Positions 4,280 through 21,370 of a DNA stretch of 64,000 nucleotides are shown here, one piece after another (the stretch's first letter is position 1; every line of letters begins with the position of its first letter). The DNA is from Pseudomonadota bacterium (GTDB lineage: Bacteria; Desulfobacterota; Desulfobulbia; Desulfobulbales; Desulfocapsaceae): the NCBI GenBank assembly GCA_018821985.1, contig JAHJKP010000032.1, positions 1 to 64,000 on the forward strand, read 5' to 3'. Position numbers and translations under genes: made by a program. The notes beneath the pieces are model-generated. The model saw only the letters and a list, made by a program, of their open reading frames with translations. It searched no databases and had not been told where the DNA came from.

Positions 4280-5488
4280 ATGTCCAAACAGGATATTATA
4301 GATAACGACATCAACCAAGAGCTTGCAGCTGATGGACGTCAGGCTGGCATCGAAGAGGAACCCATCACCCCTTTTCCGTTTGATGCTGATAGAATTTCTA
4401 TTTCAAATAAGCCTGTGCCGCTTCAGACACTAGTGCGCCGATTAGAGCAAGGCACCATCTCTTCTCCACTGATTCAGCGAGGTGAGGGGATATGGAACGA
4501 TGGCCAACAAAGCCGTCTCATTGAATCGCTCATGCTAAAGATTCCACTGCCTCTTTTTTATGTCGCGGCAGATGAGGACGAAAAGTGGAAGGTAGTAGAC
4601 GGACTTCAGAGAGTGACAGCAATTCGTCGTTTTGTTCTCACTAAAGAATTTGCCTTAACTGACTTAGAATTTATCAGAGAACTCAATGGGAAAAAATTTA
4701 ATGAATTGCCACAAAAATATCAAAATAGAATTTTTGAAACAGAATTTACGTTTGCTATTATAAATCCCGTTACTCCCCCAGAAGTACAGCGCAATATTTT
4801 TAAACGGCTGAATACAGGTGGATTACCACTTACACCGCAAGAGATTCGTCATGCCCTTTACTACGGCCGGTCTGCTGAGCTACTCAAAGAACTAGTTTGC
4901 ATGGAGTCATTTAAAAAAGCAACAGACTATCGTGTCAATGATAGCCGAATGGGTGCACGCGAACTCATTCTTAGATTTATTTCATTCTTGATTCGAGGAA
5001 CAGCCTTATATCCAAAAAACGAAGATATGGATGCATTTTTATGCGAAACAATGCAATTGATTAACCTCATGCCTGATTTTGATCCTGCGGATATAATAAA
5101 AGCATTTGGCGATCGGGATATTGTGCTAAAGGTTAACTATGACAACAATGAAGATATTCACTCTAGGTTCGAAACAGCTATGTGCCGCGCTTACGCCCTT
5201 TTTAATATTCATGCTTTTCGGAAATCAACCCCGCGCTCTAATTACAGAACTCCTGTAAATAAATCACTTTTTGAAGCATGGTCTGTGGTGTTGGCGGAGA
5301 TGGAAGAAGAAACATATCTTGTTTTGAAAAAGAGGAAGAATAAACTGTACCAAGAAATAAATTCTCGGATGTATGACCTTAACCAAGAATTTGAACGTTC
5401 AATATCCCGAGACAGCCATAAACCAAGCGGCGTTAGAGCAAGATATCGTATTATTAATGAGATTGTTAAAAAAATTATAGAAGAGTAG
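4280..5488 (+). CDS. DUF262 (ParB-like/GmrS-type) protein, first gene of a candidate defence operon
   Basis: A 402-residue protein with a DUF262 domain, the ParB/sulfiredoxin-like fold also found in the GmrSD restriction enzyme and in BrxU. Visible motifs are QRGEGIWNDGQQSRLIESL (about residues 65-83), VDGLQRVTAI (about 106-115; the family usually has DGQQR, here DGLQR) and LNTGGLPLTPQEIRHAL (about 177-193). In related enzymes this domain hydrolyses nucleotides. An AAGGA ribosome site lies 9 bases before the ATG. The DUF3696 ATPase starts 3 bases after the stop, so the two are co-transcribed. Base composition is clearly more AT-rich than the flanking housekeeping genes, which fits acquisition by transfer. 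The standalone role is unknown. Confidence 0.88.
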   Translation: MSKQDIIDNDINQELAADGRQAGIEEEPITPFPFDADRISISNKPVPLQTLVRRLEQGTISSPLIQRGEGIWNDGQQSRLIESLMLKIPLPLFYVAADEDEKWKVVDGLQRVTAIRRFVLTKEFALTDLEFIRELNGKKFNELPQKYQNRIFETEFTFAIINPVTPPEVQRNIFKRLNTGGLPLTPQEIRHALYYGRSAELLKELVCMESFKKATDYRVNDSRMGARELILRFISFLIRGTALYPKNEDMDAFLCETMQLINLMPDFDPADIIKAFGDRDIVLKVNYDNNEDIHSRFETAMCRAYALFNIHAFRKSTPRSNYRTPVNKSLFEAWSVVLAEMEEETYLVLKKRKNKLYQEINSRMYDLNQEFERSISRDSHKPSGVRARYRIINEIVKKIIEE

Positions 5489-5491
5489 CTT

Positions 5492-6502
5492 ATGATTGAT
5501 CAATTAGAAATTGTCGGGTTTAAATGCTTTAATAATGAAACATTAAATGTCGCACCTCTAACACTACTCTCTGGATTAAACAGCTCCGGTAAAAGTTCTT
5601 TTATTCAAGCTCTGAGGCTGCTGAAAGAGGGGGGGGCATTGGCTGGATATGGTTCATTGGCGGATTTGAAGTCCCGGGCACATGCGAGCTTCAAAATTTG
5701 TGCTCGGAAAGACAACGTACATTTCGGATTAGAATATACGGGCTCCGGTCAACTTAACAATTTAAATAAAAAAGTAGCATTTTTCCCTCCACTTTTTTCA
5801 TTTATCAGTGCTTCACGATTTGGTCCCCAGTCTTCCTTGCCCATTTATCCTGGCGACAATCTTTTATCAGTCGGAGAAAGAGGCGAATATGTAATCGACT
5901 TCTTTGAGCGTAATTACGAGCTTTCCGGCCTTTCGCCGATGCTTCGGATGGCAGGTCCGGAGACAAGCAGCGTTCGTCAGAACATTACAGCTTGGTTAAA
6001 TGTTATTTCTCCGGGTGTAACATTTGATACCAAAATCGACAGAATGGCGGACATGGGGCGGACAGAATATGGTGGTTTCAGAGCTTCTAATGTTGGTTTT
6101 GGCCTTTCATATACCCTACCTATTATTGTTAATATTCTTATTTATTCTGCCCTTATTGAATCTAATAAGCATAATTCTGCAATTATACTTATTGAAAACC
6201 CTGAAGCTCATCTTCATCCATCAGGCCAGACTAAAATTGGTGAGATGTTGGCTCGAGCTGCTGCATGCGGAATACAGATTATTGTCGAAACACACTCTGA
6301 CCATCTATTAAATGGGGTTAGACTTGCAGTAAAAGATGGACTTCTCAGAGCAAAAGATTCTGTTTTCTACTATTTCGCCCACAATTTTGAGGAAGATTAC
6401 ACATCAATTGAAACTCCAACTATTGATGAATTTGGCATGTTTGATGAGTGGCCAAATGGCTTCTTTGACGAGTCTGAAAAAAATCTCGGGAGACTTTTGT
6501 AG
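5492..6502 (+). CDS. AAA ATPase with DUF3696 tail (OLD/SMC-like)
   Basis: A 336-residue ABC/OLD-type ATPase. The N-terminus reads as a typical DNA-associated ATPase, with Walker A GLNSSGKSS at about residues 28-36. A Walker B-like ILIENPEAHLHPSGQ follows at about 233-247 and VETHSDHLLNGVR at about 265, the usual order in AAA_21/RecF-like proteins. The last 45 residues (…FDEWPNGFFDESEKNL) match the DUF3696 tail. No TOPRIM domain is seen, so this is not a full OLD nuclease. The tail end is 2 bases from the next gene. By analogy with other defence ATPases it probably senses a ligand or DNA and controls its partners; that is inference. Confidence 0.87.
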   Translation: MIDQLEIVGFKCFNNETLNVAPLTLLSGLNSSGKSSFIQALRLLKEGGALAGYGSLADLKSRAHASFKICARKDNVHFGLEYTGSGQLNNLNKKVAFFPPLFSFISASRFGPQSSLPIYPGDNLLSVGERGEYVIDFFERNYELSGLSPMLRMAGPETSSVRQNITAWLNVISPGVTFDTKIDRMADMGRTEYGGFRASNVGFGLSYTLPIIVNILIYSALIESNKHNSAIILIENPEAHLHPSGQTKIGEMLARAAACGIQIIVETHSDHLLNGVRLAVKDGLLRAKDSVFYYFAHNFEEDYTSIETPTIDEFGMFDEWPNGFFDESEKNLGRLL

Positions 6503-6504
6503 CC

Positions 6505-7380
6505 ATGCCTGACGTGTATTTAAACCCCTACCCAGGTGCTGAGGTTGATATAGAAATCGGAAAGGAAAAATTTCTTGCAACAGCCGAGGCATTATATGAA
6601 TTAAGAGACAACTTTCGCTTTTTTTATAATCCAGCCGTTGACACGCCAATACGAGCGTTCACTTTGATTCGAGACGCTGAGACCAAAGCAACTTATCGTA
6701 TTCAAGATATTATTTTTAGGCTGAGTGGGCGCCAAAAAGAAATTGCTCGTGCTTTTCTTGATTTTTTTAGCCGTGGCCAAAAATTAACGGAAGAACATCT
6801 ACAACATTGTGAAGACTGGGAACTATCATGCCTTAAAGCACCAGCACCGATTCTCGAACTTGCACTTCGCAACGAGGGAATGGTCACCACAATTGCGACT
6901 GAGAAAGAATGGGAAATAGATTTTATTGAATTCACTCAGACTGACAAATTGCTTCCAAATATTTGGGGGCAGAACAATCTTGAAAAAATTAAGCAATGGA
7001 TAATTTCTTGGAACGAAACGAATCTAGCAAATCTTCAACTCCTTGAGGAAATTTACAACGTACTTATCTGTGATGGTGCAATGGATAATTACCTTCCGAC
7101 TCATTCAGAATGGCCTACGATTTTTAAAATGTTTAAAAAGGCCTCAGCATCAAATTTTATCCATGATGGTTACCAAATTAAAGATGTCGACTCATCTTCT
7201 TTTGGAGTACTTAAGCAATTGAAGCATTTGGGCTCTGGCTTGCGTGTTTATGTCACGCCACACGATTCTAAACTTCTTTTAGGTGGCTTTTATAAAAAAG
7301 GGCAAGGAAACCATCAAGATGCTCAAAATAAAGCTATCAAGAAGGCTATGAAAAGAATTGAAAAGTTCTTAGCTACATAA
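6505..7380 (+). CDS. Unknown protein with RelE/HigB-like C-terminus, third gene of the candidate defence operon
   Basis: A 291-residue protein; I do not recognise the first ~225 residues. The final ~65 contain LKHLGSGLRVYVTP, then a hydrophobic strand (KLLLGGFYKKG) and a Gln/Asp/Lys-rich helix (DAQNKAIKKAMKRI). This is the strand-strand-helix pattern of RelE/HigB-type toxins, where G-x-G-x-R-[VI]-Y is followed by [LI]LLxGG-x-K and a C-terminal helix. It starts 2 bases after the ATPase stop and shares its AT-rich composition, so all three genes form one transcript. I infer a toxin-like effector held inactive until the ATPase/DUF262 pair responds. Catalytic residues cannot be assigned and family membership rests on pattern recognition only. 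Confidence 0.7.
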   Translation: MPDVYLNPYPGAEVDIEIGKEKFLATAEALYELRDNFRFFYNPAVDTPIRAFTLIRDAETKATYRIQDIIFRLSGRQKEIARAFLDFFSRGQKLTEEHLQHCEDWELSCLKAPAPILELALRNEGMVTTIATEKEWEIDFIEFTQTDKLLPNIWGQNNLEKIKQWIISWNETNLANLQLLEEIYNVLICDGAMDNYLPTHSEWPTIFKMFKKASASNFIHDGYQIKDVDSSSFGVLKQLKHLGSGLRVYVTPHDSKLLLGGFYKKGQGNHQDAQNKAIKKAMKRIEKFLAT

Positions 7381-8330: not shown

Positions 8331-8488
8331 GTTTATGTACCGAAAAATGCATCATTGGAGCTCAAGATGGCTCGTTCACATAACCCTGCTCATTCCCGAT
8401 TCTGGATGGTAAAAATATCATTACCGCTTTTATTCTTCAGTAGTGAAGGTTGAATTTAAAAAAAAATGGATGCAAAGCGAGGTCGAGA

Positions 8489-9523
8489 ATGACGGATGAT
8501 GCGCGTTTTTACGAAATTGAACCGACTCGTGAGAACTACTGGCGTGCCATCATTCTATTTGGGAGAAATGTTGCCTCGTACAAATTTGCTTTGGCAAAAG
8601 CTCTCTACGAACTTCGTAGTCATCCGCAAGAACTTATACGAATGGATGAACTGGCCCCCGTATTTGCCAAGCATATTTCTGAACATCTAAAGCTTTGTGA
8701 CAAGCAAGCAACATCAAGCAAGAGCCGCTTTCTTGATATATGTCGGTCATTCAACAATGGAGAAATCCAGGAATCCAAATTGATCGAGCAGACCGTCAGG
8801 CTCGGCTTTCAAAATGTCATTGATGCTTTTCACAATGTTCACGGCAGTGAAATCCCTACGAGATTCTTTCTTGATGAACGAAGCACAAATGGTGGCATCC
8901 GCCTTACTGATCAATTTTACACTCTATCAGAAAATCCAGTAATTCATGATCTGAACCTTGAAACTGAAGCCCGTTGGCGTTTAGTAGAGACTGCTTGGGA
9001 TTTAAGTCTTTCCCCGCATATAATTCAGATCACACACGATGAAACTAACAAATTACTACACACGTTATCAGCGAAAAATCGCAGAGTGTCGATTACCTCT
9101 TCGCGGGACGCACTCAACGGGTATCAGAAAGGACGTTGTTTTTATTGTTTTAGAAAAATTTCAGTAGACACATTTTCGCCAGATCTTGCAGACGTAGACC
9201 ATTTTTTTCCTTATAAACTGAATTATTGTGCAAATGATAAACCGATCAATGGGGTAGCAAATCTGGTTCTTGCATGTAAAGAATGCAATCGTGGTACCAG
9301 TGGAAAATTCGATAGGCTTCCAAGCATAGGTCATTTGGAGCGTCTCCATTACCGGAATGAATATCTCATAAAGAGCCACCATCCTCTTCGTGAAACTTTG
9401 ATGTTGCAGACAGGTCTTTCAGGACCGGATCGCCGATCGTTTCTTCAGTCAGCATACAATTGTGCAAAGAGTACGCTTATTATGAATTGGGCACCACCAG
9501 CATGCGGTGATGCTGTTTTTTAG
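8489..9523 (+). CDS. HNH endonuclease
   Basis: A 344-residue protein with a C-terminal HNH nuclease domain: first zinc knuckle CFYC (about residue 217), catalytic-strand DVDHFFP (about 235), and ACKECNRG with the second CxxC (about 263). This is a complete zinc-bound beta-beta-alpha metal HNH arrangement. The ~200 N-terminal residues (…FGRNVASYKFALAKALYEL…) form an unrecognised helical domain. The ATG at 8489 has GAGG seven bases upstream and is preferred over the TTG at 8450. An intrinsic terminator overlaps the stop codon. Probably a restriction-like or defence nuclease, given the neighbours; target unknown. Confidence 0.85.
   Translation: MTDDARFYEIEPTRENYWRAIILFGRNVASYKFALAKALYELRSHPQELIRMDELAPVFAKHISEHLKLCDKQATSSKSRFLDICRSFNNGEIQESKLIEQTVRLGFQNVIDAFHNVHGSEIPTRFFLDERSTNGGIRLTDQFYTLSENPVIHDLNLETEARWRLVETAWDLSLSPHIIQITHDETNKLLHTLSAKNRRVSITSSRDALNGYQKGRCFYCFRKISVDTFSPDLADVDHFFPYKLNYCANDKPINGVANLVLACKECNRGTSGKFDRLPSIGHLERLHYRNEYLIKSHHPLRETLMLQTGLSGPDRRSFLQSAYNCAKSTLIMNWAPPACGDAVF
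9498..9521 (+). terminator. Intrinsic terminator overlapping the end of the HNH gene
   Basis: CAGCAT (9498-9503) pairs with ATGCTG (9510-9515) and is followed directly by six T. The T-run carries the TAG stop codon, so coding and termination signals overlap. Confidence 0.7.
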
Positions 9524-10128
9524 TTAGAAAAAGGGGTTAAGTCCGCTCTGGCTTTTATCGGTTGTTGGAGAAAACTTCATTCCTGTCCAGACCATTACGC
9601 ATAGAATTCCTCGGTGTTTGATATCATGTCATGAACCGGGGACGCAGCTTTATGTTTGATCGTTACCTTCGGTTGTTCGTTAGTTAAGTGAATACGATTT
9701 CCATTAACTAAGGACGAGGTTAAGTAAAATGTGGCACAGACCAAGGAATAGGTTATCGAATCATAAGGAATGGGGCCGGGCCGTGACCACAATTGAACGT
9801 CTACGAACACTATTAAAAAAAATTACATCCAAAATTTCTTCTCCCGGGCTATCAATACAATCCACGTTTCTGCCTTCGTTTTCCTCCATCATACTGATGC
9901 CAATACAGAATTGGGATAAGGGAGTGATACTCCTCATTTCCTTTAAATGACAACACCGCCGAAGACCCATGAAAATAAGGGTATGGTTGGATTTGAAAAA
10001 ATTGTTGTCTGCCTGGGAAATATGATAGTCTTTTAATAATTACTTTCTTTCGTCCGCCTTATTTGAAGACCCGCTCATATCGTTGCAACCTCACTTTTAT
10101 TGTAAATAAAGAAAAAGGAGCATACCCT
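9524..10128. other. Intergenic region with repeat debris
   Basis: No intact gene. It starts with a 'ggggttaagtccgct' fragment of the dispersed repeat type. It contains 'taaggaatgggg' near 9762 (also at 14764) directly joined to a fragment of the ABC-ATPase gene start (listed separately). An AAAAAGGAG ribosome site at 10112-10120 belongs to the lipoprotein gene. Confidence 0.5.
9779..9828 (+). pseudogene. Fragment of the ABC-class ATPase 5' end (third copy)
   Basis: About 50 bp encode RAVTT-ERLRTLLKKI, almost identical to the starts of the truncated copy at 12703 and the intact gene at 15121. The similarity stops abruptly after the AAAAAAAATT run, and the frame has no valid downstream gene. 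It is a leftover of duplication or recombination in this locus, not a functional gene. Confidence 0.7.
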
Positions 10129-10626: not shown

Positions 10627-10720
10627 TTGTATAACAGGCACATTTCACAGCGAAAGCGAGGAATGAGAGCAGATGAACATAAACGGCCAACTCGAACGAT
10701 AATGAGAATAGGGTCGGGCC

Positions 10721-10810
10721 ATACTAACTAACTGAAAGTATGGGTAGTCATTATTGAAAGCATGCTTTTCCCGGGGCTATAATGACGTTTTTAAGGATAA
10801 AAACGCAAAG
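10721..10810 (+). repeat. Repeat A, copy 1
   Basis: A ~90-bp sequence beginning 'tactaactaactgaaagtat' and ending 'gacg...aaacgcaaag'. It is nearly the same as 14784-14871, and its first ~40 bp recur at 21221-21260. In this copy it runs directly into the hsdS remnant, while copy 2 runs into repeat B upstream of the intact ABC-class ATPase. The junction at about 10808 is therefore a recombination breakpoint. Confidence 0.75.
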
Positions 10811-10938
10811 AGCCCAGGAACAACACCGCATCGTCGCTAAAATCGACCAGCTTATGGCTCTCTCAATTGGAAAACCAAATCGATGCCGCCACCATCAAAC
10901 AGACCGTCCTGCTCAATGCCGTGATGGCGCAGGTGTAA
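10809..10938 (+). pseudogene. hsdS: hsdS remnant: C-terminus of a type I restriction specificity subunit
   Basis: The frame from 10809 encodes RAQEQHRIVAKIDQLMAL, the signature of the HsdS C-terminal conserved helix. A small deletion then shifts the frame, and SQLENQIDAATIKQ followed by TVLLNAVMAQV ends at the TAA (10936-10938). This is the usual HsdS ending. Everything upstream, including both target-recognition domains, is missing. It is a dead fragment and part of a dismantled type I system together with the pieces at 10948 and 13074. Confidence 0.85.
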
Positions 10939-10947
10939 GGAAACTCC

Positions 10948-11031
10948 ATGCGCCTGCAAGCGGTTACCATCGGCAAGTCCAATCTGTTCGCGGCGCTCAT
11001 CGAAATCTTCCGAAACCTCTACGAGTACGAT
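10948..11031 (+). pseudogene. Remnant of an AAA ATPase gene from the type I locus
   Basis: The ATG has AAGGAAA upstream and encodes MRLQAVTI joined directly to GKSNLFAALIEIFRNL. In intact AAA_21-type ATPases of type I restriction loci, about 20-30 residues separate the start from the Walker A GKSNL. An internal deletion has therefore fused the two, and coding similarity is lost after about residue 28. It sits 9 bp after the hsdS remnant, as ATPase genes often do in such loci. Not functional. Confidence 0.65.
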
Positions 11032-11098
11032 ATACTGGAGGTATTTTCTTGCTTCTTGAAATATCTGTATTTGCCGTTGGCGGCGAGGAGAACATGGT

Positions 11099-12445
11099 AT
11101 GTCGACGAAAATACGTACTCAATTGATCGCCCTTGGCCCTGAAAAGCTGGCGGATGCCCTGCTGGCGATGGCCGACAATTATGATGAGGCCGCTGCACTG
11201 GTGGCGAGACTGGTGGCCACCCCCGATGAAAAGGTGAAACGGTTTAAGGCCAAGCTCGCCGGCTTGAAGCGGTCGCGCCGGTTTATTGACTGGCGGGAAG
11301 GTGGCTCTTTTGCCAGGGATTTGGCGGGGCTGCTTACTGATCTTGAAGAAGGCGTGGAAGACGGCAAGGTCGGCGTGGAGTTGGTGGCGCGTTTTTTTGA
11401 ATGCGACCGGGCGGTCTTTGAGCGTTGCGATGATTCCAACGGCATGGTGGGGGATGTTTTTCGCCATGACGCCAGCAAGCTTTTTGTACGTTTTGCCGCA
11501 GCCTGTCCGGATAAGAAATGGCTGACTGAACTGCTTGTCAAACTTTTCGGTGGCAACGACTATGGGGCCAGGGATTGCCTGCTGGAATCAGCGGCCATGT
11601 TTCTGCCCGAGGAAAATCTGCGTGGCCTGGCCGAGCAATTCTGGCAGTTGGCAGAAAAGGAAAAAGACGAGTATCAACGGCGGAGCTGGTATCGGGGGGT
11701 GGAGGAACTGGCAGCTCAACTGGGTGATGCGCCCCTTTTTGAAAAAGCGCGGCTGGCCGCCTGGGGTGAACCAGGAACCGCGGCCTGTCTGGATATCGCC
11801 GAGGTGTATCTGAAGACCGGAGAGGCGCAAACCGCCCTTGCCTGGATTAAACGGGACAAGGAGCCGGGCGCTTTTATGGCGGATAAGCGTGACCAGCTTC
11901 TCCAGGCCATCTATACGGAATTGGGTGAATCGGAAAAGGTCACGGAGATTGCCTGGAAACGTTTTCGCAGTCATCGCAGCGTTGCCGGTCTGGATGAATT
12001 GTTGGCGGTAATCGGCCAGGAGCAGAGGGAAACGGTAATTGCCGGGCAAGCCCGGGAGATCATGGCGGCAAAGGGCTTCAGTGCGTCCGATGCCAAGTTT
12101 CTCCTCCTGAGCGGGTGTCTTGACCAGGCTGAAAACTATCTCCTCCAATCCGTTGAACAATTGAACGGCGATTTCTACGACTCTCTTCTGCCGCTTGCGC
12201 AGGCCATGGAAAAAGAGGCGCGCCATCTTGCCGCCTCCATGCTCTATCGCGCCCTGCTCGACTCCATCCTCCGAAGAGCGCAGACCAAGACCTATCCGTA
12301 CGGTGTCCGTTATCTCAAAAAACTTGATGCGCTGGCTCCGGCGATCAGCAACTGGCAGCGTTTTACCGGTCATGAAATTTACAAAAAAGAGCTTAAGCTG
12401 GCCCATGGCCGCAAGCACAGCTTCTGGGGAAAGTATGATAAGTAA
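11099..12445 (+). CDS. DUF6880 family protein
   Basis: An intact 448-residue mainly helical, probably TPR-like protein. It shows the pattern I associate with DUF6880: RSRRFIDWREG (about residue 60), FERCDDSNGMVGDVF (about 101-115), and a C-terminal HEIYKKELKLAHGRKHSFW. GAGGAGAAC lies just before the ATG. Function is unknown. It lies between the hsdS/AAA fragments and the duplicated ABC-ATPase fragment; it is the only complete gene in that stretch. It may be cargo of the former restriction island or may work alone. Confidence 0.8.
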   Translation: MSTKIRTQLIALGPEKLADALLAMADNYDEAAALVARLVATPDEKVKRFKAKLAGLKRSRRFIDWREGGSFARDLAGLLTDLEEGVEDGKVGVELVARFFECDRAVFERCDDSNGMVGDVFRHDASKLFVRFAAACPDKKWLTELLVKLFGGNDYGARDCLLESAAMFLPEENLRGLAEQFWQLAEKEKDEYQRRSWYRGVEELAAQLGDAPLFEKARLAAWGEPGTAACLDIAEVYLKTGEAQTALAWIKRDKEPGAFMADKRDQLLQAIYTELGESEKVTEIAWKRFRSHRSVAGLDELLAVIGQEQRETVIAGQAREIMAAKGFSASDAKFLLLSGCLDQAENYLLQSVEQLNGDFYDSLLPLAQAMEKEARHLAASMLYRALLDSILRRAQTKTYPYGVRYLKKLDALAPAISNWQRFTGHEIYKKELKLAHGRKHSFWGKYDK

Positions 12446-12492
12446 TCCTCAACAGGGTGAGAGTTTGTAATTATTGGAACATAATACTCAAA

Positions 12493-13072
12493 CAACTCAT
12501 GGCCAGGGCTGGCTCAGAATGAGCATGGAAAAGGGGATTGACCCTTTGCCATTAAATAAAAAGCCGGCTATCTTCTAGCTGGATATGATCGCGACTCGGG
12601 TGCGGGTTAGCGCCAAATGCGACTGTGTAGGAAGGCAAGTATACTCTTTGACCTTGCCCTGATTAAACGAGTACTGTTCAACATGAATAAAAAATAGTTT
12701 TTTTGCGGGCCGTGACCACAAAGGAACGTCTACGAACACTCTTAAAAAAAATTGATGGGCGAGGGTACAAGGCCTATAAGGAACTGAAGGGGAGCTATCA
12801 GTTTAATGGCTACCAGTTCACTGTCGATCATGTCCAGGGAGATCCTTTTGCCCAGCCTTCGCGGATAAGCATTCATGTGCCGTCATCGGCAACTCCTCTT
12901 CCCTCTGAACTCTGTTCTGGCAAGATACGGAAAACCGCTGCGGAAGATTTTCTGGCAAGGGCCGTTGCCAGGGCAATCCAGGCACACGTCAAGGGGCATC
13001 GGGGGATCGGCAAGAGTGGCGAGATCCGGATTGAAACGAGTGGACAGCAGATCCTGGTCAGAAATTCGGTGC
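12493..13072 (+). repeat. Repeat B, copy 1 (duplicated upstream region plus 5' end of ABC-class ATPase gene)
   Basis: About 580 bp matching 14884-15470 at roughly 90 % by eye. It covers a ~215-bp noncoding stretch ('attgaccctttgccattaaa' region) and the first ~120 codons of the ABC-class ATPase. Similarity ends sharply at about 13072, where hsdM-derived sequence begins. Small indels and substitutions show that the two copies have been diverging for some time. Confidence 0.85.
12703..13072 (+). pseudogene. Truncated ABC-class ATPase (N-terminal ~123 codons)
   Basis: Encodes the same IDGRGYKAYKELKGSYQF start as the intact gene at 15121, then QGDPFAQPSRISIHVPSS, and stops matching after LVRNSV. 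It lacks the whole nucleotide-binding domain. The ATG of the intact gene reads AAG here. The frame continues 36 codons into foreign sequence before a stop. Not expected to be functional. Confidence 0.85.
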
Positions 13073-13073
13073 A

Positions 13074-13298
13074 ATCAGAAACGGGCGCAAGACCACCGAA
13101 CACGCCTGGATGGTCTCGGTCCAGGAGATCGTGGCGCTTAACTACAACATCGACTGCAAGAATCCCCATGAAGTCGAAGTAAACTACAGCAACCCGGAGG
13201 AACTGATGCAGGAGTATCTGGAAATCGCTCGCCAACTCGAAACGGTGCAGAACACGTTGAAGGCCGAGTTGATGGCGGCATTGGGCGGTACTTCATGA
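13074..13298 (+). pseudogene. hsdM: hsdM remnant: C-terminus of a type I restriction methylase
   Basis: In the frame ending at TGA 13296-13298 the sequence reads RKTTEHAWMVSVQEI, then NYNIDCKNPHEVE and a helical tail ending LKAELMAALG. The W-x-V-S-x-x-E-I … NYN-[LI]-D-x-KNPH pattern is the C-terminal signature of HsdM. The catalytic domain with NPPF is gone, replaced at about 13073 by the truncated ABC-ATPase copy. The stop overlaps the ATG of the AlbA_2 gene (ATGA), preserving the original operon junction. Confidence 0.85.
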
Positions 13299-14713
13299 AC
13301 GGTGAAACCTTGCTCACCCTTAACGAAGGGAAGACCCTTGAATTCAAGCGGGATCTGTCATCTCCCAAAGGACTGCTGAAGACCCTTGTCGCCTTTGCCA
13401 ATACAGCGGGCGGTAAACTGATAATCGGGGTGGAAGACAAAAGTCGACAGGTGATCGGTGTCGACTTTCCGCTCGACGATGAAGAGCGGCTGTGCAGCCT
13501 GATTGCCGACTCCATCAGCCCCCGCTTGGTTCCCAATATTGAAATGACCACAGTGGACAACAGAACCCTGCTGATTGTCGAAGTCTTCCCCAGCAATTCC
13601 CGTCCCCATTATCTACGTTCTGAAGGCCCGGAAAACGGCGTCTATGTCAGGCTCGGCTCCACCAACCGGCAGGCGGACCGAGAGCTGATTGGCGAACTGC
13701 GACGTTCTGCCGAGGGTGTTTCGTTTGACGAAATGCCGCTTCCGGAACTCTCAAGAGACGACTTGGACCTCAAGGCCGCACGTAGAGCATTTGCAGGAAA
13801 ACGTGAACTTGACGAACAGGAGTTAATCACCCTCAAGTTGCTTCGGAGTGAACAGGGGCGACTGGCTCCCACCAAAGGGGCGATGATCCTGTTCGGGAGG
13901 GAGCGCACCTTTCATTTTCCCGACGCCTGGGTGCAGTGCGGGCGTTTCATCGGCCACGACAAGACCGACATCTTCGACCACATCGAACTGGACGAACCGC
14001 TGCCCCAGGCCGTGGAAAGCATCATGTTGTTTCTCAAAAAACACGCAATGCGCGGGGCAGATTTTTCCGAAATTCAGCGCAAGGATGTCTGGAGCATTCC
14101 CCTCACAGTTCTGCGCGAAGTGGTCATTAATGCTCTGGTACATACCGATTACTCCCAGCGTGGTGCCCCGATCCGCATCGCTTTCTTCGACGACCGCATC
14201 GAGGTTGAAAATCCGGGCATTCTGTTACCGGGGATGACCATTGAGGATATGAAGAGCGGAGTTTCCAAGATCCGCAATCCTGTCATTGCCCGCGTCTTCC
14301 GTGAACTGAAGCTGATTGAACAATGGGGCAGCGGCGTGCGCAACATCCTGCACCAAAGCCGGGAAATGGGCCTGCCGGAACCGTTGGTTCAGGAACTCGG
14401 TATGCGTATGCGTTTCACCGTCTTTCTGGCCAGGCCGATTGTCCTTGATAAGCAGAAGGTCGGTTCACGGTCAGGATATCAACCTGGGTTGGTAGATGGG
14501 TTGGTAGATGGGTTGGCAGAAAGTCAACGCCAGATCCTGTTACTGATTACCGAAACCCCTCACATCTCCAAACGGGAACTGTCTGAGCGGATCGGCATCA
14601 GCACCACGGCTATCGACAAGAATATCAAGACCTTAAAAAACAGAGGAGCTCTGCGGAGGGTGGGGCCAGATAAAGGCGGCTACTGGGAAGTAGTGGGATA
14701 CAGTCATGAATAA
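13295..14713 (+). CDS. AlbA_2 / Schlafen-type putative DNA-binding ATPase-like regulator
   Basis: An intact 472-residue protein. It begins with an AlbA_2 domain (LEFKRDL at about residue 15, TAGGKLIIGVED at about 37) and a middle GHKL-like HATPase_c_4 region (VINALVHTDYSQRGAPI, then IEVENPGILLPGM). It ends in a winged helix at about 410-470 (ISKRELSERIGISTTAIDKN). Its start overlaps the hsdM stop, the usual place for such genes between hsdM and hsdS. With hsdM gone it is an orphan. A 12-bp unit (gggttggtagat) is repeated from 14486, giving a LVDGLVDGL linker that could change length by slippage. Confidence 0.9.
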   Translation: MNGETLLTLNEGKTLEFKRDLSSPKGLLKTLVAFANTAGGKLIIGVEDKSRQVIGVDFPLDDEERLCSLIADSISPRLVPNIEMTTVDNRTLLIVEVFPSNSRPHYLRSEGPENGVYVRLGSTNRQADRELIGELRRSAEGVSFDEMPLPELSRDDLDLKAARRAFAGKRELDEQELITLKLLRSEQGRLAPTKGAMILFGRERTFHFPDAWVQCGRFIGHDKTDIFDHIELDEPLPQAVESIMLFLKKHAMRGADFSEIQRKDVWSIPLTVLREVVINALVHTDYSQRGAPIRIAFFDDRIEVENPGILLPGMTIEDMKSGVSKIRNPVIARVFRELKLIEQWGSGVRNILHQSREMGLPEPLVQELGMRMRFTVFLARPIVLDKQKVGSRSGYQPGLVDGLVDGLAESQRQILLLITETPHISKRELSERIGISTTAIDKNIKTLKNRGALRRVGPDKGGYWEVVGYSHE

Positions 14714-14783
14714 AGGGAGCGTGGAGTAGCTGAGTAACAAGGGCACGGATCTATTTAAATCCTAAGGAATGGGGGGCTAGCCG

Positions 14784-14871
14784 TGCTAACTAACTGAAAG
14801 TATGGATAGTCATTATTGAAAGCATTCCTTTTCCCGGGCTGTAATGACGTTTTGAAGGCCAAAGACGCAAA
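14784..14871 (+). repeat. Repeat A, copy 2
   Basis: Matches 10721-10810 with scattered substitutions ('gctaactaactgaaagtatg' at its start). Here it is followed directly by repeat B and the intact ABC-class ATPase, which is probably the ancestral order A-B-gene. The 14714-15120 gap contains no gene, only repeat A, repeat B and the 'cctaaggaatgggg' motif at 14761. Confidence 0.75.
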
Positions 14872-14883
14872 TATAGAGTCACG

Positions 14884-15470
14884 CAACTCCCTGGCCAGGG
14901 CTGGTTCAGAATGTGCATGGCAAAGGGGATTGACCCTTTGCCATTAAATAAATAATCCGGCTTTCTTCTAGCTGAATATGATCGCGATTCGGGTACGGGT
15001 TAGCGCCAAATACGACCGTGTCGGAAGGAAATTATATACTCCTTGCCCCTGCCCTCGCTCTGATTCAACGAGTTCCGTTCAATAGGAACAAAAAATGGTT
15101 TTTTGCGGGCCGTGACCACAATGGAACGTTTACGAACACTCTTAAAAAAAATTGATGGGCGAGGGTACAAGGCCTATAAGGAACTGAAGGGGAGCTATCA
15201 GTTTAATGGCTACAGGCTCACTCTCGATCATGTCCAGGGTGATCCTTTTGCCCAGGCTTCGCGGATAAGCATTCATGTTCCGTCATCGGCAGCTCCTCTT
15301 CCCTCTGAACTCTGTTCCGGCAGGATACGGAAAACTGCTGCGGAAGATTTTCTGGCAAGATCTGTTGCCAGGGCAATCCAGGCACACGTGAAGGGGCATC
15401 GGGGGATCGGCAAGAGTGGCGAGATGCAGATTGAAACCAGTGGTCAGCAGATCCTGGTCAGAAACTCGGT
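14884..15470 (+). repeat. Repeat B, copy 2 (upstream region plus 5' end of the intact ABC-class ATPase)
   Basis: The partner of 12493-13072. Its last ~370 bp are the 5' part of the intact ATPase gene, showing that the duplication took the gene start and its leader together. The direct orientation and 2.4-kb spacing make it a substrate for deletion by homologous recombination. Confidence 0.85.
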
Positions 15471-16812
15471 GCTGATAGACAGTGAAGGTGTCGAGGCACG
15501 GTTGACCGTCGGTCTGCCTGCAGCAGGGCGAACGATCATGGCAAGGGATGTGGAAGAAATGTTTTTCAGGGAACTCCCGGAAGTTGTCTCTCATGGTCTT
15601 TATTTTGAAAATCTGGATCAAGGCAGCTTTCAAAGACATGTCGAGTCTGCTGAAGATCAGGACTGTTTGCGAGGCCTGCTGCTGCCCAACAATCTTGCCG
15701 CTTTTGTGGCCGACAACTCCCTGTTGCCAAGACAGAGCGGGATTGATGACCGGCCCCTTAAAGGAAAGGTTATCCCCTTTGTGGCCCCGGAATCACTGGC
15801 CTGCACGCTTGTCTTGCCCAACAGGGGCAAGGTTCGGGGGATGGGCATTCCCAGGGGGGTAACCCTGATTGTCGGCGGCGGTTTTCATGGGAAATCAACA
15901 CTCCTCCATGCACTCGAAAGGGGTGTCTATAACCATATCCCCGGCGATGGCAGAGAGCTTGTGGCAACCGATCCCTCGGCAGTCAAGGTCCGGGCGGAAG
16001 ACAACCGGGTCGTTTCCAATATTGATATCAGCCCCTTCATCGACCGGCTGCCCTTTGCCAGAAATACGACCGGTTTTTCCACTGAGAATGCCAGCGGCAG
16101 TACCTCCCAGGCAGCCAACATCATTGAGGCCCTGGAAGATGATGCCGCTCTGCTCCTGATTGATGAAGATACGTCGGCCACGAATTTCATGATTCGCGAT
16201 GAGCGGATGCAGAGGCTGGTGGTCAGGGAAAAGGAACCGATAACGCCCTTTCTTTTCCGGGTGCGGGAGATGTATCACGTGCTCGGGGTCTCCACGATTC
16301 TGGTCATGGGAGGTTCCGGCGATTATTTCGCGGTAAGCGATACGGTCATCATGATGGATTCCTACAGACCGGAGGATGTCACCCTCAAGGCGCAGGCCCT
16401 GGTCGACCGGGAACAGGTTCAGGAAAAACCGGGCGATCTGCCGCCCATTGTCAGAAAGTCGGCAAGACGTCCGGACGCCGGGCGACTCAATCCGGTGCGG
16501 GGGAAAAAGGATGTTTATATTGAGACCCGCGGCATTGACACCCTTTTGTATGGCCGACATGAGATTGATCTGAGTAAGGTGGAGCAGCTGATCGATATCG
16601 GTCAGACCAGGGCCATCGGCCTCATCATCCACTATTACGCCAGAAACTATGCTGACAGGGCTGAAAATCTTACGGAAGGGCTGAGGCTTGCCCTCAAAGA
16701 TGTGGAAGAAAAGGGGCTCGATATCCTGTCGCCCTGGAAAACCGGAACACTCGCGCTGCCCCGGTTGCACGAGGTGGCGGCCGCGATCAACCGAATACGG
16801 GCGGAAGGGTGA
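15121..16812 (+). CDS. ABC-class ATPase of the PF09818 family (predicted)
   Basis: A ~563-residue soluble protein of the 'predicted ATPase of the ABC class' family. N-terminal region: IDGRGYKAYKELKGSY, then HVQGDPFAQASR. Walker A is GGGFHGKSTLLHAL at about residue 250. The region around Walker B, ALLLIDEDTSATNFMIRDER, carries the family-specific Asp-Glu-Asp. The rest, to INRIRAEG, has normal family length. No membrane segments or transporter partner. The ATG at 15121 is preferred; GTG 15112 and TTG 15103 are in frame, and no clear ribosome site decides. Function is unknown. Two truncated copies of its 5' end lie upstream. Confidence 0.87.
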   Translation: MERLRTLLKKIDGRGYKAYKELKGSYQFNGYRLTLDHVQGDPFAQASRISIHVPSSAAPLPSELCSGRIRKTAAEDFLARSVARAIQAHVKGHRGIGKSGEMQIETSGQQILVRNSVLIDSEGVEARLTVGLPAAGRTIMARDVEEMFFRELPEVVSHGLYFENLDQGSFQRHVESAEDQDCLRGLLLPNNLAAFVADNSLLPRQSGIDDRPLKGKVIPFVAPESLACTLVLPNRGKVRGMGIPRGVTLIVGGGFHGKSTLLHALERGVYNHIPGDGRELVATDPSAVKVRAEDNRVVSNIDISPFIDRLPFARNTTGFSTENASGSTSQAANIIEALEDDAALLLIDEDTSATNFMIRDERMQRLVVREKEPITPFLFRVREMYHVLGVSTILVMGGSGDYFAVSDTVIMMDSYRPEDVTLKAQALVDREQVQEKPGDLPPIVRKSARRPDAGRLNPVRGKKDVYIETRGIDTLLYGRHEIDLSKVEQLIDIGQTRAIGLIIHYYARNYADRAENLTEGLRLALKDVEEKGLDILSPWKTGTLALPRLHEVAAAINRIRAEG

Positions 16813-16890
16813 TTTCCATTCATTCATTCATAACTTTTCAAAAATGCGAAAAAATGGCGGCGGCAGTTAATCACACCAAGGTGTTAAACA

Positions 16891-17619
16891 ATGTCTGAGA
16901 TACAAGATCGAGTCCAGCTGCACCCTTCCTGGAAGAGCCGGATAGGAGGTGAATTTGAGCAGGAGTATATGCAAAAGCTCAGAGAGTTCCTGATTCAGGA
17001 GAAAGAGGCCGGCAAGATCATCTACCCGGAAGGGAAAAATATCTTTAATGCCATGAACATGATCCCGTTTGAGGACGTGAAGGTAGTGATTATCGGCCAG
17101 GACCCGTATCATGGCCCGGGTCAGGCGCATGGCCTCTGTTTTTCCGTGATGCCGGGGGTGGTGCCGCCACCGTCGCTTAAAAATATTTTCCAGGAAATCC
17201 AGGCCGATCTCGGCATCCCACCGGCCAGCCATGGACATCTCCACAGCTGGGCCGAGCAGGGCGTGCTGCTGCTCAACAGTGTGCTCACCGTGGAACAGAA
17301 CAGGGCGGCCTCGCACCAGGGTAAGGGCTGGGAACGTTTCACCGATGCCATTATTCAGACGCTGAACCGGGAGCATTCCGGGCTGGTGTTTTTCCTGTGG
17401 GGCAGCTATGCTCAAAAAAAAGGGGCGATTATTGATAAGAAGCGGCACCTGGTACTGCAGTCGGTTCACCCGTCCCCCTTATCCGCGCATCGTGGTTTTT
17501 TTGGGAACAAGCATTTTTCCCAAGCAAATTCATATCTGCAAGCTCAGTCAAAAGCACCAATTAACTGGGAACTGCCTTTACTGAATGCAGGGAACAACAA
17601 CCCATATAATCATTTGTAA
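16891..17619 (+). CDS. ung: Uracil-DNA glycosylase, family 1
   Basis: Removes uracil from DNA as the first step of base-excision repair. The 242-residue product has the family-1 water-activating motif [14 protein letters not shown] (Asp about residue 71), the uracil-stacking [10 protein letters not shown], the FLWG strand and the minor-groove loop [13 protein letters not shown]. All key residues are present and the length is normal. It is followed after 69 bp by the MAT gene on the same strand. Confidence 0.97.
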
Positions 17620-21098: not shown

Positions 21099-21220
21099 TG
21101 GACAATGTGGGCAAAGAGTATCGAAATTATTATTTTTTCCCTCTAATAATTTGTATCATGCCGGTCTCTATCGGCAAAGGAAAAATAATGGTGGTGGCTT
21201 TTTGGGATTTATGGAGGAGG

Positions 21221-21260
21221 GGCTGGCCGTGCTAAATAGCTGAAAGTATGGATAGTCATT
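21221..21260 (+). repeat. Repeat A-like sequence, copy 3
   Basis: 'ggctggccgtgctaaatagc' followed by 'tgaaagtatggatagtcatt' matches the first ~40 bp of repeat A at 14778-14813. Similarity then stops. It lies in the 272-bp gap between the hydrolase promoter region and the end of the adenylating-enzyme gene; no gene is seen there. Confidence 0.6.
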
Positions 21261-21370
21261 GCTTCGACTGGTTTCGTGCAGGTCGGAAATGGGGGGCATG
21301 TCCGCTCTCTTGTGTCGATGTGCCGGAGCATGCCTCTATTGATGCAATACAGGGGGTGTTGAACAGAATC

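Follow-up and report, generated by a model that had tools for sequence, protein, structure and literature searches.

We asked how pieces of a type I restriction-modification operon came to lie, out of their usual order, around intact genes in a sulfur-cycle bacterium that belongs to a Desulfobulbales genus. The locus belongs to a defence-type region next to ung in the window (the whole stretch of 64,000 nucleotides that was analysed), and all its parts from 10705 to 14740 are on the plus strand (Table 1). An earlier note on this DNA had read it as one type I locus, shattered by stepwise deletion and recombination into three fragments. The fragments are real, as the hsdS and hsdM pieces align to the operon genes of two relatives (G003 and G004), and the note was right to see a type I operon taken through stepwise deletion and recombination. 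The history behind them is probably broader: operon and single-gene modules would be exchanged between species at a hypervariable island around ung and repeatedly broken, so that two independently truncated pieces now stand side by side.

Table 1. Coordinates in the window of the locus parts and neighbouring features.
Feature	Position	Strand	Evidence
ABC_ATPase 5'-end fragment, 48 nt, joined to the beginning of a REP-like sequence (shared CGGGCCGTG)	9777..9824	+	94% identity to 12706-12753 and 15106-15153
RAYT 5'-end repeat, copy 1, ~110 bp, REP-like GGGTCGGGCC...CTAACTAACT, putative promoter TTGAAA-18-TATAAT	10705..10813	+	Model R1, 100 bits; RAYT homology
hsdS C-terminal remnant, last 122 nt, 5-nt frameshifting deletion	10818..10939	+	blastn 80-81% to intact hsdS of G003/G004
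AAA ATPase remnant, 28 codons, 84-nt internal loss; gene usually after hsdS	10948..11031	+	Comparison with G004
Intact DUF6880 gene	11099..12445	+	PF21810 E 1.1e-50; 94% aa identity to G002; dN/dS 0.245
Second half of RAYT-derived leader plus ABC leader, with AAAGGGGATTGACCCTTT hairpin	12493..12702	+	90% to 14890-15100; repeat alignment
ABC_ATPase gene, second copy, truncated, ABC_N only	12703..13072	+	PF20446 E 4.7e-36; 94% to intact copy
hsdM C-terminal remnant, last 222 nt, about 73 codons	13077..13298	+	82-91% nt identity to relatives, 84-91% to G004 alleles
Intact AlbA_2 gene (Schlafen AlbA_2 PF04326, HATPase_c_4, wHTH)	13295..14713	+	dN/dS about 0.04 vs four relatives
hsdS 5' stub, 34 nt, stop after 7 codons	14706..14739	+	Homology to G004 hsdS start stops at 14739
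RAYT 5'-end repeat, copy 2, upstream of intact ABC_ATPase	14766..14879	+	Model R1, 101.6 bits
Intact ABC-class ATPase (ABC_N, ABC_ATPase, MRB1590_C)	15103..16812	+	
ung, common to the island in 10 genomes (window's included)	16891..17619	+	
Partial RAYT-end repeat near right edge of variable region	21217..21263	+	Model R1, 29 bits

Decayed restriction genes and their retained neighbours

hsdR is absent at the locus, hsdM is down to 73 codons and hsdS to its ends, and thus no type I system with hsdR, hsdM and hsdS present and intact is found there. The remnants are homologous to bona fide operons, with about 80-91% nucleotide identity to those of G003 and G004. As the earlier note had it, the hsdS C-terminus is frameshifted: it lacks 5 nt (CTCTGCGATCAACTGG to CTCTCAATTGG) and is out of frame relative to intact hsdS. 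The AAA remnant reads MRLQAVTIG joined to KSNLFAALIEIFRNLYEYD, with 84 nt (28 codons) lost in frame compared to G004 between two copies of a CGGC micro-repeat. The in-frame internal loss proposed before therefore stands, but it is not the whole of the damage; everything past codon 56 is also gone, including the 3' end, leaving about 28 of 621 codons. The open frame of the AAA remnant (60 codons, compared with G002) has a dN of 0.075 and a dS of 0.053 and bears no sign of constraint. A type I locus on contig C49 was ruled out as the source of the fragments; it matches the R, M and S queries at 29-31% identity.

The DUF6880 and AlbA_2 genes are full length by profile match and had rightly been called intact. 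Purifying selection on AlbA_2 is strong (omega about 0.04) and extends to copies that have lost the operon: over the first 375 codons dN/dS is 0.03-0.05 in all pairs, also between the orphan copies of G004:C174 and G009, neither of which has a whole operon at the site. Because dN/dS is low in AlbA_2 and the AAA frame is unconstrained, the remains of the restriction genes appear to be non-functional and AlbA_2 to be kept. That AlbA_2 outlives the operon in several species suggests a function of its own. AlbA_2 and DUF6880 are retained by selection, presumably as free-standing genes that probably act in defence. Our literature search found no paper naming DUF6880, and none of the three hits for AlbA_2 dealt, by title and abstract, with its place in type I operons.

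Intact operons and the histories of the two blocks

Intact relatives run R-M-AlbA_2-S-AAA or R-M-AlbA_2-S, and therefore the order at the locus is rearranged, in line with the earlier note, which had taken M-AlbA_2-S-AAA as the usual order. The longer form is present in G004:C250 (where the contig stops within AAA) and in G090 (with a divergent AlbA_2), and the shorter one in G003 (hsdR frameshifted) and in Pseudanabaena UWO311; G219 has M-AlbA_2-S-AAA at a contig edge and G151 has R-M-S-AAA. The HsdR of G090 belongs to the EcoAI family (1214 bits against a cut-off of 550, hsdR model NF046051). The intact AAA protein has 621 aa and resembles PtuA of Septu; in G090 (L145, 7871-9736) the gene behind hsdS is PtuA-like at 9.5e-55, and this operon thus joins a type I system, a PtuA-like ATPase and AlbA_2. 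The hsdM and hsdS remnants of the window are collinear with the intact R-M-AlbA_2-S-AAA operons of the order, as in an EcoAI-family operon, whereas hsdR is lost altogether, little remains of hsdM or hsdS, and the order is changed. The earlier note had also looked to intact loci carrying the same AlbA_2 and DUF6880 genes. Operons with AlbA_2 were found, but DUF6880 was unmatched in the intact operons checked (search and ORF lists).

The pieces form two blocks, hsdS'-AAA'-DUF6880 and hsdM'-AlbA_2 (primes mark remnants). In a second species, G002, the first block (10708-12491) is collinear at 92% identity, has the same internal AAA loss and sits upstream of an intact ABC gene. A search of the whole G002 genome (83% complete) for AlbA_2 gave no match, and hsdM'-AlbA_2 appears to be missing from it. 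The second block has its counterparts elsewhere. In G004:C174 the hsdM tail starts within 2 nt of its position in the window and is followed by AlbA_2 and a longer hsdS stub; in G009 only about 25 nt of hsdM are left before AlbA_2; and in G001 the 3' part of AlbA_2 and an hsdS stub are joined to the repeat described below. The hsdM remnant is 90-95% identical to G004:C174 over 13131-13310, compared to 78-88% for the intact alleles, while the end of AlbA_2 (after 14400) is 83-92% identical to intact alleles and 30-67% to G004:C174. With its 5' part nearest G004:C174 and its 3' part nearest the intact alleles, AlbA_2 is therefore itself a mosaic. We abandoned the idea that hsdM was truncated twice, at one base and in two species independently, and prefer a single shared truncation, hsdM' being closest to G004:C174. 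TCAG stands directly before hsdM' in both, although a match of four bases counts for little. A second island repeat (AAAAAGGGGTTAAGTCCGCTCTGGCTTTTATCGG..., window 9527-9647; L025; L050) is present in several relatives and lies at the hsdM' junction in G004:C174.

The modules also differ in dS, which is 0.13 for DUF6880, 0.17-0.25 for ABC, 0.34-0.42 for AlbA_2 and 0.56-0.73 for ung, so that all island modules fall below ung. Movement of modules between species that had already split would give such a spread, to which codon bias may contribute as well as transfer. Thus the hsdS'-AAA' and hsdM'-AlbA_2 pieces probably have separate histories, and one locus shattered in place, as the earlier note had it, is not the best reading. 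Could a single resident operon nevertheless have fallen apart on the spot through deletions and local rearrangements, with DUF6880 and the ABC copies inserted? The pieces are all of one operon type within 4 kb, the 5' and 3' hsdS pieces could derive from one gene, and a later loss of hsdM'-AlbA_2 in G002 would leave room for one ancestral locus. We nevertheless regard this as unlikely. The order S-AAA then M-AlbA_2 requires more than deletion, the blocks differ in nearest relatives and in dS, and G002 and G004:C174 come close to being separate donors, the one with only hsdS'-AAA'-DUF6880 and the other with only hsdM'-AlbA_2.

A RAYT-end repeat in a variable island around ung

Next to ung, gene content differs in each of about 10 genomes, and genes for NsnA/NsnB-like, PtuA-like, Fic and type I restriction-modification proteins are clustered and variable between relatives. 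As in hypervariable defence islands and hotspots, co-directional modules (Nsn-like, type I, Septu-like, Fic, AlbA_2) lie between shared flanks in species-specific sets; in contrast to these, no phage or ICE integrase was recognised in a casual look through the ORFs examined (not a dedicated search), and module borders often bear RAYT-end repeats. Upstream of the locus (window 4280-7380), three genes encode a GmrSD_N/NsnA-like protein, an NsnB-like AAA ATPase and an unmatched protein of 291 aa, a unit that from its sequence looks like an intact Nsn-type defence system, and 8450-9523 holds an HNH nuclease gene with weak similarity to PtuB (Septu). G002, G006 and G012 carry an aldo/keto reductase gene between ABC and ung that is absent here (16823-16853). 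In G001 (L047), ung stands between modules with the ABC ATPase downstream rather than upstream, and thus the position of ung within the island shifts.

The repeat is present in 11 of the 17 genomes of the genus, and the eight copies with at least 100 bits (model R1) are all on contigs bearing island genes; G008:C20 has island genes and no ung in the stretch read. Its 3' side varies by genome (hsdS', ABC, Fic, a second AlbA_2 protein or the aldo/keto reductase), and at least five different modules are preceded by copies in the genus. We identify it, by similarity, as the putative 5' end of a RAYT element, with a REP-like end, a promoter (11/12 match) and the first codons. This reading was chosen because a match to a RAYT pseudogene (L183; 85% over 61 nt, score 75 against 28 for the best of 100 shuffles) runs through the transposase start codon, and the codons after it match RAYTs (tblastn, 74% over 53 aa, 1.6e-21); L183 thus combines a REP-like end with a RAYT gene start. 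Weaker relatives of the repeat elsewhere in the family flank RAYT genes. The reference RAYT proteins pass the Y1_Tnp cut-off and score 65-71 bits with the NCBI curated RAYT model NF047646, below its cut-off of 80. A search of Rfam with the repeat gave no match, and a structured-RNA or attC-like repeat was dropped, since there are no compensatory changes and the breakpoints vary. RAYT (TnpA_REP) and REPIN elements are a known kind (PMC3116915, PMC8266576), and homology of the repeat to RAYT genes and pseudogenes in the family takes in their 5' flank, promoter and opening codons; unlike those, here the 5' end stands alone beside unrelated genes, with no RAYT gene seen at the site.

We tentatively suggest, while holding it to be unlikely, that exchangeable defence modules around ung have repeatedly landed at, and been expressed from, this promoter-bearing end of a domesticated transposase, the orphaned AlbA_2 from type I operons being one module that was kept. 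If so, genes joined behind the RAYT end would be expressed at once. It is improbable that the repeat is an active site-specific exchange site, where modules insert like cassettes after a fixed promoter, instead of a passive remnant that ordinary recombination uses. Such a site would be compatible with our preferred explanation and would account for at least five modules adjoining one element, all of them 3' of it. However, even G000 and G002 differ by about 20 nt in where the break falls past the element, no compensatory changes maintain the short inverted repeat TTTTTAAGGCCAAAAA, and no recombinase gene was noticed in a casual look (not a dedicated search) through the island ORFs examined. 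Of the marks of an integron-like cassette array, an integrase and precise attC-like borders, the borders were compared and vary by about 20 nt.

Junctions and the making of the locus

The earlier note had placed the fragment ends at the ABC ATPase copies. This is true of the hsdM fragment, which adjoins the truncated copy at 13072/13077, but the hsdS fragment starts at the RAYT-end repeat, and it is this repeat, not the ABC copies as such, that recurs at the joints. The ABC'/hsdM' join could fall in TCGGTG, common to ABC and to the island repeat at 9560-9625, six bases only. Assembly errors had been raised earlier as well. The hsdS'-AAA'-DUF6880 block is not an artefact, because it recurs in G002, and its junctions are thereby cleared; those at 13072/13077 and 14740/14766 are known from the window's genome alone, no second genome showing either. 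A chimera of assembly or binning that joined repeats (ABC copies, RAYT ends) is very improbable, for although the assembly is fragmented (57 contigs) and two of the junctions coincide with duplicated sequence or are close to it, the ABC copies are about 6-10% apart, too diverged for simple collapse, the first block is found again, and similar hsdM'-AlbA_2 and hsdS-stub/repeat junctions occur in G004, G009 and G001.

In the exchange that we consider probable, an EcoAI-like operon (hsdR-hsdM-AlbA_2-hsdS-AAA) would have passed between species at the island and been broken repeatedly by deletion, and single-gene modules (DUF6880, the ABC ATPase, Fic and the second AlbA_2 protein) would have been exchanged likewise. 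One piece, hsdS'-AAA'-DUF6880, would have been inserted behind the RAYT-derived promoter repeat, from which it may be transcribed, and the other, hsdM'-AlbA_2 with the hsdS stub, set between the truncated and intact ABC ATPase copies. The joins may have formed by microhomology, by short-repeat recombination or at RAYT ends, and parts without selection would erode.

Defence islands are a known kind (PMC8791490), restriction-system decay is also known, and this case is a new example of defence-island decay and shuffling. It shows, breakpoint by breakpoint, the dismantling of a restriction operon, and suggests that the joints of a defence island may be recognised by ends that come from domesticated transposases. 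Thus the locus is an instructive but ordinary instance of defence-island turnover, whose combination of features gives two testable leads: the free-standing AlbA_2 and the RAYT ends as joints.
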